Shown here: positions 59,338 through 62,529 of the stretch, one piece after another
Layout: each line of letters opens with the position of its first letter
Numbering within the stretch: the stretch's first letter is position 1
NCBI RefSeq assembly: GCF_016406325.1
Contig: NZ_CP066370.1
Coordinates: 3,968,001 to 4,032,000, forward strand
DNA length: 64,000 bases
DNA from: Shewanella putrefaciens
GTDB taxonomy: Bacteria > Pseudomonadota > Gammaproteobacteria > Enterobacterales > Shewanellaceae
Reading direction: 5' to 3'
Program-made: the position numbers and the translations under genes
Notes under the pieces: model-generated
Told to the model about the DNA's origin: nothing
Seen by the model: only the letters and a program-made list of their open reading frames with translations
The model's database searches: none

Positions 59338-59938
59338 GATATTCTCTCCAATAATATAGCTCTCACAGTGTACGACGATTTAGCACTGGGAACAGTGCAA
59401 AATAGTAACCTAAATACCAGTCAAACACTTACAACATAAAAAACGATTGAAATCAGTATACTGCTGCCTCTAAGTCAACGAGCACCATTTACGTCAAGCT
59501 AATCACGATATTAGGCACAAATGACAAATTTCAGATCTTTCCCCTCAAATCTAAGAATAAATCTAAGAACATTATCACTTTTAATAGGTAAAGATGATTT
59601 TATAAAGAATATTTATGCATAATAATTCAAATATGGCATGCGCTATAAATGATGTTCACCATTGTAGTAGTCATTTAATTATAATTAGAAAAATATCATT
59701 AAATGTTTTATGCAATATTTAATACTATAATGCATTAAGGATATTTACATTTGTAATTTAGATAATGGTACTTAAGGACGATTGACTGCTTTTAACAAAT
59801 ACAAAAATAGATGAAATAAATAATTACACTTAATTAAAAACAAGACACTGATCATATTTTTATTTATAACACACAGATAAACTCTATACCGTAATAAAAC
59901 GTTTCTATCATTTTCTCTAAGTCATAATGGAGTTGTAT
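59338..59938. other. gene-free AT-rich stretch upstream of the speF leader
   Basis: The 601 bases are AT-rich. An 11-bp direct repeat AAATCTAAGAA occurs at 59547-59557 and 59559-59569, and a GCACTG/CAGTGC palindrome is at 59383-59398. The promoter of speFL-speF should lie near the right end. No gene or further RNA was recognised. Confidence 0.5.
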
Positions 59939-60043
59939 ATGAAGAGGAAATCTAAAATTATGGCGCATATCCGGCGCACACGACATATCATGATGCCTAG
60001 TCAACGTGATTATTTCGACCATTCATTTATCTTTCTCCGCTGA
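59939..60043 (+). CDS. speFL: SpeFL ornithine-sensing leader peptide
   Basis: ATG 59939 (behind GGAG, 7 bases) opens a 34-codon frame that ends at TGA 60043. Residues 10-16 are HIRRTRH, the HIRRxxH sensor motif of SpeFL. From memory of E. coli SpeFL the two align over 34 residues without gaps, with about 16 identities, including Met8, Arg23, Phe26-Asp27, Phe30 and Arg34. In E. coli and Salmonella the ribosome that has made this peptide captures ornithine, arrests near the stop and blocks Rho-dependent termination, turning on speF. Here it stands 323 bases before speF. It is too short for routine gene calling. Confidence 0.88.
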   Translation: MKRKSKIMAHIRRTRHIMMPSQRDYFDHSFIFLR

Positions 60044-60366
60044 TCCTAGCGCAGGTAGTAAACTAAGTAACAGGTCTAAAGTGGTATTGTGTCAACTTAC
60101 GTAGGCACCTATCATACTGTATTAACTTAGTTTGTTATCTCGCACCCTTATCAAAGCATTCTTTTATTAGTGCAGATTTTCTGCGGCTACTCTATTCACG
60201 CATCCAATAAATATATTTCAAATTATATTTTATTTAGCGTATTACGTATAGCCACATCTAAGCTGCGCATGGAATAGCTATATCTAATTTTTATGCCATT
60301 AATATTTTTAATTAGGTATAGGCACTGTTGTATCCAAATTATTTAGTAGCAAAAAGGAAATTAACT
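60044..60366 (+). promoter_or_regulatory. leader region between speFL and speF
   Basis: The stretch holds AAACTAAGT (60060-60068) that can pair with ACTTAGTTT (60125-60133) and a small GCAG/CTGC hairpin near 60172-60184. In the known system this region carries the Rho-loading site and an RNase/attenuation structure. No intrinsic terminator with a T run was found, in keeping with Rho control. Confidence 0.55.
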
Positions 60367-62529
60367 ATGAAATCATTAAAAGTAGCCGCTAGCTTATCTG
60401 TCAGATCTTGTTTCGATATAGACAGAGAAGTCGTCAACGTATTAACCACTGATTTTTGCGATGTAGGTGCGGCTGTTGTCTCTGTTGATGATGTTAGAAA
60501 TGGTATTGTTGAAAAGATTAAAAATACCGGATTAAAACTACCGATTTTCGTTTCAGTTTGCTGTGAAGAAACCTTCCCAGATGATGTATGCTCATCAATT
60601 ACTGGGGTATTTGAACTCTGCGGAGATAACACTGACTTCTACGGAAAACAGGTGGAAACTGCGGTTAATAAATATGAGCAAGCTTTATTACCCCCTTTCT
60701 TTGGGACACTCAAAAAATACGTCGAAATGGGCAACTCCACCTTTGCTTGCCCTGGCCATCAAGGTGGACAATTCTTCCGTAAACACCCTGTAGGCCGTCA
60801 GTTCTTCGACTTTTTTGGCGAAACTATTTTCCGTGCTGATATGTGTAATGCCGACGTTAAATTAGGCGACCTACTCATCCATGAAGGTGCGCCGCTTGAT
60901 GCACAAAAATATGCGGCTAAAGTGTTTAATGCCGATAAAACTTATTTCGTACTCAATGGGACTTCTTCTTCCAATAAAGTGGCCACTAATGCGTTATTAG
61001 CAAAAGGGGATTTAGTACTCTTTGATCGCAATAACCATAAATCGAACCACCATGGCGCGCTAATTCAAGCGGGTGCAACACCGATTTATTTAGAAACAGC
61101 ACGTAACCCCTTCGGTTTTATTGGTGGTATAGATGCCCACTGTTTCCAAGAATCTTATTTAAGAGAACAAATTCGTGAAGTTGCCCCAGAACGCGCCGAT
61201 GAAAAACGCCCATTCCGGTTAGCGATTATCCAATTGGGTACCTACGACGGTACTATCTATAATGCTCGCCAAGTGGTTGATCGTATTGGTCATCTATGTG
61301 ATTACATTCTGTTTGACTCAGCTTGGGTGGGCTATGAACAGTTTATTCCCATGATGAATGACTGTTCACCACTACTGCTCGAACTGACGCCAGAAGATCC
61401 TGGTATTATCGTGACGCAGTCTGTACACAAACAACAAGCAGGCTTCTCACAGACCTCACAAATTCATAAAAAAGATAAGCATATCAAAGGCCAAACGCGA
61501 TACTGTAACCATAAGCGTTTCAATAACGCCTTTATGATGCATGCCTCAACCAGCCCCTTCTATCCTCTGTTTGCGGCGCTGGATGTGAACGCAAAAATGC
61601 ATGAAGGAGCAAGCGGTCGTTATCTGTGGCGCGAAGCGGTAAAAGCGGGTATCGAAGCACGTAAGCTATTGCTCAAAAAGTGTAAATATATCAAACCCTT
61701 CGTGCCAACCATGATCGACGGTCGCCTATGGCAAGAATATGAAACCGAGCAAATGGCCGACGATTTACGCTTCTTTGAATTCGAACCCGGTCAAAAATGG
61801 CACTCCTTCGAAGGTTATGAAAAAGGCCAATATTTCGTTGATCCTTGTAAATTCCTGTTAACAACTCCGGGTATTGATGCCGAAACGGGTAAATATACTG
61901 AGTTTGGAATTCCCGCGACTATTTTGGCTAACTTTTTACGGGAAAATAATATTATTCCAGAGAAGTGCGACTTAAATTCGATTTTATTCCTGATGACACC
62001 CGCAGAAGATATGGCAAAAATGCAACACTTAGTGTCGCAAATATCCCGCTTCGAAAAATTAGTTGATGAAGATGCACCATTATCCGAAGTCTTACCTAAT
62101 GTTTATAACGCCAATAAAGCCCGTTACAAAGATTATACTATCCGCCAACTCTGCCAAGAAATGCATAATCTTTATGTCAGCCATGATGTAAAACAATTGC
62201 AAAAAGAAATGTTCAGAAAAGCACATTTCCCAACTAAGGTAATGGACCCTCAAGAAGCTAATCTTGAATTTATTCGCGGTAAAGTAGAACTAGTCCCACT
62301 CTCTCAAATTGAAGGTCGTATCGCTGCCGAAGGTGCGCTGCCATATCCACCAGGAGTGCTATGTATGGTTCCAGGTGAAATATGGGGAGGTGCTGTACAG
62401 CGTTATTTCTTAGCCCTTGAAGAAGGTATCAACTTATTACCCGGATTCTCGCCAGAGTTGCAAGGTGTTTATCTCGAAAACACCGCCGAAGGCAAAATCC
62501 AAGCATTAGGTTATGTATTAGCTAAATAA
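60367..62529 (+). CDS. speF: inducible ornithine decarboxylase
   Basis: The 720-aa enzyme decarboxylates ornithine to putrescine, consuming a proton. It has the fold-I PLP decarboxylase layout: N-terminal wing domain, FACPGHQGGQFFRKHPVGRQF, LNGTSSSNKVATNALL, FDSAWVGYEQF, and TQSVHKQQAGFSQTSQIH with the PLP lysine. The sequence is close to E. coli SpeF. ATG 60367 follows AAAAGGAA; a TTG at 60328 in the same frame was rejected because the family starts with MKSLKVA-like sequence. Expression is probably controlled by SpeFL. Confidence 0.96.
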   Translation: MKSLKVAASLSVRSCFDIDREVVNVLTTDFCDVGAAVVSVDDVRNGIVEKIKNTGLKLPIFVSVCCEETFPDDVCSSITGVFELCGDNTDFYGKQVETAVNKYEQALLPPFFGTLKKYVEMGNSTFACPGHQGGQFFRKHPVGRQFFDFFGETIFRADMCNADVKLGDLLIHEGAPLDAQKYAAKVFNADKTYFVLNGTSSSNKVATNALLAKGDLVLFDRNNHKSNHHGALIQAGATPIYLETARNPFGFIGGIDAHCFQESYLREQIREVAPERADEKRPFRLAIIQLGTYDGTIYNARQVVDRIGHLCDYILFDSAWVGYEQFIPMMNDCSPLLLELTPEDPGIIVTQSVHKQQAGFSQTSQIHKKDKHIKGQTRYCNHKRFNNAFMMHASTSPFYPLFAALDVNAKMHEGASGRYLWREAVKAGIEARKLLLKKCKYIKPFVPTMIDGRLWQEYETEQMADDLRFFEFEPGQKWHSFEGYEKGQYFVDPCKFLLTTPGIDAETGKYTEFGIPATILANFLRENNIIPEKCDLNSILFLMTPAEDMAKMQHLVSQISRFEKLVDEDAPLSEVLPNVYNANKARYKDYTIRQLCQEMHNLYVSHDVKQLQKEMFRKAHFPTKVMDPQEANLEFIRGKVELVPLSQIEGRIAAEGALPYPPGVLCMVPGEIWGGAVQRYFLALEEGINLLPGFSPELQGVYLENTAEGKIQALGYVLAK

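Follow-up and report, generated by a model that had tools for sequence, protein, structure and literature searches.

We describe a 34-codon open reading frame upstream of speF and potE in Shewanella putrefaciens that is a well-supported member of the known SpeFL family of leader peptides. We suggest that it is the SpeFL of Shewanella and that it very probably acts by ornithine-captured termination arrest, by which Rho termination in the leader would be prevented and speF-potE would be expressed. The finding extends a metabolite-sensing arrest peptide of known structure to a genus that occurs in spoiled seafood, a setting in which putrescine production matters (PMC9808388). Moreover, the natural variants in the effector part, in the stop position and in the leader RNA provide material for testing the mechanism established in E. 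coli.

speFL and the downstream genes

The window, i.e. the whole stretch of 64,000 nucleotides that was analysed, contains speFL, speF and potE in this order and on the same strand (Table 1). A sequence-only reading had proposed a 34-codon ORF behind a good ribosome-binding site, with HIRRTRH at residues 10-16 together with R23, F26-D27 and R34, ending 323 bases before speF. All of these points are borne out: the ORF translates into MKRKSKIMAHIRRTRHIMMPSQRDYFDHSFIFLR followed by a TGA stop, its GGAG Shine-Dalgarno sequence is separated from the ATG by a spacer of 6 nt, and the gap to the speF ATG at 60367 spans 60044-60366. The start at 59939 is preferred to an in-frame ATG at 59927 because the latter is absent in some relatives. 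In the whole one-contig genome (4.39 Mb), this locus is the sole match to the peptide at E<=10. SpeF and PotE score above the cut-offs not only of the models given in Table 1 but also of NF010092 and TIGR04299, respectively, and SpeF shares 70% identity with its E. coli counterpart over the segment that aligns best.

Table 1. Features of the speFL-speF-potE region, in window positions
Feature	Position	Strand	Basis or detail
Candidate promoter -10 element, GATAAA (TATAAA in many relatives)	59876..59881	+	Conserved block in 28 aligned leaders
Shine-Dalgarno sequence of speFL, GGAG	59929..59932	+	Present in 28/28 aligned leaders
speFL, 34-aa leader peptide and TGA stop	59939..60043	+	Pfam PF10940; phmmer to 6tbv/6tc3; synonymous-only divergence
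HIRRTRH motif, codons 10-16	59966..59986	+	Arg codons CGG CGC and CGA
Pyrimidine-rich codons 28-34, candidate Rho-loading region	60020..60040	+	Analogy with Salmonella orf34
Hairpin downstream of the stop	60049..60143	+	z=-2.72 and -3.66 in the window; moderate covariation support
Conserved leader block	60262..60338	+	92-96 nt before speF in 18 close genomes
Ribosome-binding site of speF, AAGGAAA	60354..60360	+
speF, inducible ornithine decarboxylase, 720 aa	60367..62529	+	TIGR04301, 1432 bits (cut-off 1310)
potE, putrescine-ornithine antiporter, 439 aa	62614..63933	+	NF007938, 801 bits (cut-off 409)

Relation to E. coli SpeFL and other leader peptides

The window peptide matches the Pfam SpeFL family (PF10940) with 45.3 bits against a cut-off of 25 (E=7.3e-12), and all seven members of our first alignment match the same family; in NCBIfam, no model matching the speFL peptide was found. 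In a phmmer comparison the peptide aligns without gaps over residues 1-31 to the E. coli SpeFL chain in 6tbv/6tc3, structures of that peptide within the ribosome (E=1.6e-4). The whole E. coli peptide, part of which is present in the PDB chain, is MENNSRTMPHIRRTTHIMKFAHRNSFDFHFFNAR according to the annotated speFL gene b4803, and alignment to it gives 47% identity over 34 columns and upholds the proposal that the two peptides have the same length and register.

In addition to the 34 codons, the E. coli and window peptides (b4803; 6TC3/6TBV) have in common S5, M8, HIRRTxH at residues 10-16, I17, M18, R23, F26, D27, F30 and R34, and both ORFs precede speF-potE. They differ in that T15 of E. coli is replaced by R, in residues 19-22, 24-25, 28-29 and 31-33, in the stop codon (TGA in the window, TAG in E. 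coli) and in the distance between leader ORF and speF (323 nt in the window, 257 nt in E. coli). The divergence after the motif had been anticipated by comparison with KFAHRNSF at residues 19-26 of E. coli SpeFL, a stretch that agrees with the sequence records. These differing residues do not, by themselves, show that the effector contacts differ.

Salmonella orf34 (DUF2618) resembles the window ORF in being a 34-codon leader ORF before speF with a pyrimidine-rich end, and the hairpin described downstream of its stop also has a counterpart in the window. Pairing of the orf34 end with the speF ribosome-binding site was shown by mutation (PMC6386406), whereas none was seen in the window by what is a weak test. 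TnaC is a leader peptide whose termination arrest depends on a metabolite (PMC8429421), as is proposed for the window peptide, but it differs in sequence, in its ligand, tryptophan, and in the genes concerned. ORF34 homologues are described as widespread in gamma-proteobacteria and as typically preceding an inducible ornithine decarboxylase (Ben-Zvi et al., PMC6386406), in a paper the main text of which nowhere names Shewanella. In the literature searched, the scope of which did not extend to Herrero del Valle et al. 2020, we recognised no paper on the speFL leader in Shewanella and no experiment on it.

Conservation of speFL and its association with speF

A speFL match at E<=1 occurs in 39 of 129 genomes of the genus, in 27 of them at E<=1e-3; the 12 matches at E 0.03-0.94 were left out of the speFL count. 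Full-length speF at an identity of at least 80% is present in 28 of the 129 genomes, and in seven others the speF matches are only partial or distant (32-36%). The speFL and speF sets (27 and 28 genomes, respectively) agree save for one genome, G104, i.e. of the 28 genomes that carry such a full-length speF, 27 also carry speFL (interrupted in one case), and none of the 129 genomes has speFL without speF. In all 26 intact loci of the genus, speFL precedes speF.

Three genomes deserve a separate description. In G104 (L180), speF is 81% identical to that of the window, no SpeFL match is found in the 2.7 kb upstream, and three near-copies of a 16-base repeat lie directly before the speF start codon. 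In the assembly of G043 (L181), speF is seen only as a C-terminal fragment of about 206 residues (89%). In G038 (L182:3070-3263 and L027), speFL is broken near codon 17, apparently by an insertion element: 9 bases are common to both contig ends, and inverted terminal sequences are present, which we take to resemble IS10-like ends.

In a sample of the order, 31/394 genomes have a match over the Pfam cut-off and 36 have one at E<=0.01; in a sample of the class, 1/369 exceeds the cut-off, namely the genome of the window itself. A contig scan identified 117 relatives, and in each of the best 80 of these 117, which were kept for counts, speF lies downstream on the same strand at a distance of 148-381 nt, with speF starts placed by alignment. 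Lack of conservation across relatives had been named beforehand as grounds for giving up the SpeFL assignment; the peptide is kept in Shewanella, Vibrio, Pasteurellaceae and enterics.

Several further matches were set apart. Six weak PF10940 matches outside the order (L172-L177) have no speF match in the flanking DNA examined; the flanks of L172 and L173 were inspected and contain other genes, and those of L174-L177 were scanned only. In L178, two PF10940 matches about 600 nt apart lie in a repeated stretch, with no speF match in the DNA examined, and were set aside. L183 and L184 have neither a SpeFL nor a speF match.

In the ten relatives that share the peptide exactly (L002-L011), 1-12 of the first 32 codons are synonymous variants of those in the window and no codon change alters an amino acid; in L012-L026, the same comparison gives 9-17 synonymous codon differences and 1-6 that change an amino acid. 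As judged from these codon comparisons, speFL is under selection as a peptide. Across 35 distinct peptides, R23 is present in 35, F26 in 34, F31 in 31 and D27 in 20, and positions 32-34 are variable. M8 and the HIRRT.HIM core are likewise invariant, or were all but required by the search patterns (M8 by one of the two scan patterns), so that their counts carry little weight; R23 and F26 lie outside the patterns.

A model for ornithine-dependent control of speF-potE

E. coli SpeFL stalls its own ribosome in the presence of ornithine (PMC8429421, PMC7815308); the ribosomes halt immediately before the speFL stop, with an effect on Rho (PMC7815308). In Salmonella, Rho-dependent termination is prevented when orf34 is translated, and ornithine is an inducer of speF (PMC6386406). 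By homology to these systems, ornithine-dependent arrest by the window peptide is well supported, and it is from them that we infer ornithine capture, arrest at the stop codon and a role of Rho in Shewanella. In our model, (i) the N-terminal sensor around HIRRTRH would settle in the exit tunnel during translation and capture free L-ornithine, (ii) the C-terminal part would next prevent release of the peptide, leaving the ribosome stalled with TGA in the A site, (iii) the ribosome held there would shield the pyrimidine-rich end of speFL together with the foot of the hairpin that follows, and (iv) it would thereby prevent Rho termination in the leader, speF-potE being made when ornithine is plentiful. 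Weighing against the model are the residues that differ from E. coli SpeFL, a stop position that varies among relatives although termination arrest hinges on it, the Shewanella loci with no evident hairpin after the stop and, by a weak test, the lack of any sign in the window that the leader ORF end pairs with the speF ribosome-binding site.

Stop position and stop-shifted forms

By analogy with E. coli, termination arrest would probably take place at codon 35 in the window. TGA is decoded by RF2, and therefore inhibition of RF1 as such need not apply here. Because the stop codon of Salmonella orf34 is UGA (PMC6386406), the TGA in the window is no obstacle to the model.

Of the best 80 of the 117 relatives, 54 have the stop at 25 codons from H10 and the other 26 have it later, their frame running on for 4-9 codons. 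With groups assigned by record titles (that of the enteric-like locus L106 reads Chryseobacterium), the stop is at 25 codons in 43/43 enteric and 10/12 Shewanella loci and at 30 in 2/12 Shewanella loci; one Vibrio locus has it at 25 and one at 29, and all 23 Pasteurellaceae loci have it at 31-34. In 23 of the 26 intact loci of the genus the stop is codon 35, and the other three (L019, L020, L026) are 39 codons long and carry Pro33. The 26 ORFs end in TAA (23), TGA (two, including the window) or TAG (one). Pro33, a codon 35 that is not a stop and the lack of an evident hairpin after the stop characterise a Shewanella clade of L019, L020, L026, L072 and L073 that includes S. chilikensis and S. 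carassii.

In Salmonella, arginine control was lost when the orf34 stop was changed to Trp, a change that lengthens the peptide by 23 residues (PMC6386406), and natural stop-shifted forms are of interest for this reason. That the stop position is not conserved raises the question of elongation versus termination arrest. Tentatively, and with the odds against it, SpeFL might not be inherently a termination-arrest peptide: the stop-shifted lineages (the 23 Pasteurellaceae loci, Vibrio metoecus and the Pro33 Shewanella clade) would use the same sensor to arrest elongation at about codons 32-34, e.g. with prolyl-tRNA as a poor acceptor, and termination arrest at codon 35 would be one of several outputs fitted to a single ornithine sensor.

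Alternative explanations

For the window, ornithine-captured termination arrest is the preferred reading, and we consider it improbable that speFL functions by arginine-codon attenuation only, i.e. that slowing at R12, R13 and R15 when arginine is scarce changes the folding of the leader without any sensing of ornithine. Control by arginine via codons 12-13 has been described for Salmonella orf34 (Ben-Zvi et al., PMC6386406), and the window motif has three Arg codons, one more than that of E. coli; however, conservation extends past these codons to R23 (35/35 distinct peptides) and F26 (34/35), R12 and R13 are encoded by varying synonymous codons, and speF of Salmonella is induced by ornithine (PMC6386406). 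Less probable still is a Shewanella arrest peptide that senses another ligand, e.g. lysine, arginine or a polyamine. The residues between motif and stop do differ from those of E. coli, and S. oneidensis is said in a review to produce cadaverine with the participation of both SpeC and SpeF (PMC8891985). Against this reading, the motif has not changed, and curated models identify the downstream genes as those of an ornithine decarboxylase and a putrescine-ornithine antiporter. Finally, a chance ORF or a trans-acting small protein is very improbable: short ORFs are common and the ORF list has many of speFL size near the locus, but the Pfam match (E=7.3e-12) and the absence of amino-acid changes against 1-12 synonymous differences in ten relatives rule out chance, the place before speF is constant, and Salmonella ORF34 supplied in trans gave no arginine control to constructs without it (PMC6386406).

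The leader RNA

In 18 of the 26 Shewanella loci (L001-L018), a long hairpin (90-97 nt, roughly 95) starts 3-8 nt past the speFL stop (z -1.9 to -6.5). A ribosome with a stop codon in the A site covers about a dozen bases beyond the stop, and one stalled at the speFL stop would thus reach the foot of the hairpin. In L021 the hairpin is strong but of another kind (z -4.1), and none is evident downstream of the stop in the other seven loci (L019, L020, L022-L026; z -1.0 to +0.4), among which are the three stop-shifted loci L019, L020 and L026. A comparably placed hairpin is seen in E. coli (z -2.2). In an alignment of 13 hairpin sequences (12 distinct), 94.8% of cells pair, a level attained by 0 of 500 shuffles (92.9%), whereas 2 of 500 shuffles equal the covariation score, and slid structures pair in 26-48% of cells; the covariation support is only moderate because the aligned sequences are closely related.

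No intrinsic-terminator-like site is found on the + strand between 59400 and 60400, and one is present on the - strand. Rfam yielded seven matches in 59400-60600, all far below the gathering scores. Codons 28-34 of speFL are 81% C+T, a content reached by 0.25% of the 21-nt windows stepped along speF-potE; by analogy with Salmonella this tract would suit Rho loading, yet Phe, Ser and Leu codons alone can yield such a composition.

Pairing of the ORF end with the speF ribosome-binding site gave z -1.0 to +1.2 against base shuffles in 21 Shewanella leaders. When the test, a weak one in which E. coli itself gives +0.3, was applied to 26 Shewanella loci, the window gave +0.5 and z<=-1 was reached in 4/26 (mean -0.3); the enteric control was only partly positive, with z<=-1 in 21/44 and z<=-2 in 11/44 (mean -0.9). 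In a duplex scan of 95 leaders, some of the enteric best duplexes among those listed are at the speF ribosome-binding site, with energies no better than those of shuffles. RNAalifold on 17 leaders suggested that codons 18-28 of speFL pair at long range with the conserved block around 60270. Compared with synonymous variants, this pairing is at or below the 6% level in only 6/18 loci, and in the window 77% of the variants pair as well or better. The fold of the 60262-60338 block is not better than that of shuffles (z=-0.43), and the same holds for a hairpin at 60278-60321; the dyad in the block could represent an RNA hairpin or a protein site. In L022-L025, which are without the long hairpin, z values of -1.6 to -3.2 point to a possible pairing of the speFL end with the speF ribosome-binding site, and the genus perhaps has two alternative leader designs, one with the long hairpin and one with this pairing.

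Upstream of speFL, the candidate -10 element would place the transcription start near 59888; a consensus promoter scan made no call at the element. The element is part of a conserved block at 59839-59885, which reads GACAC..GATCATATTTTTATT and then GATAAA and may consist of an activator site and the -10 element. A study of arcA in S. oneidensis gives fold-change values for speF of -3.03 and -2.79, as listed there (PMC2262068).
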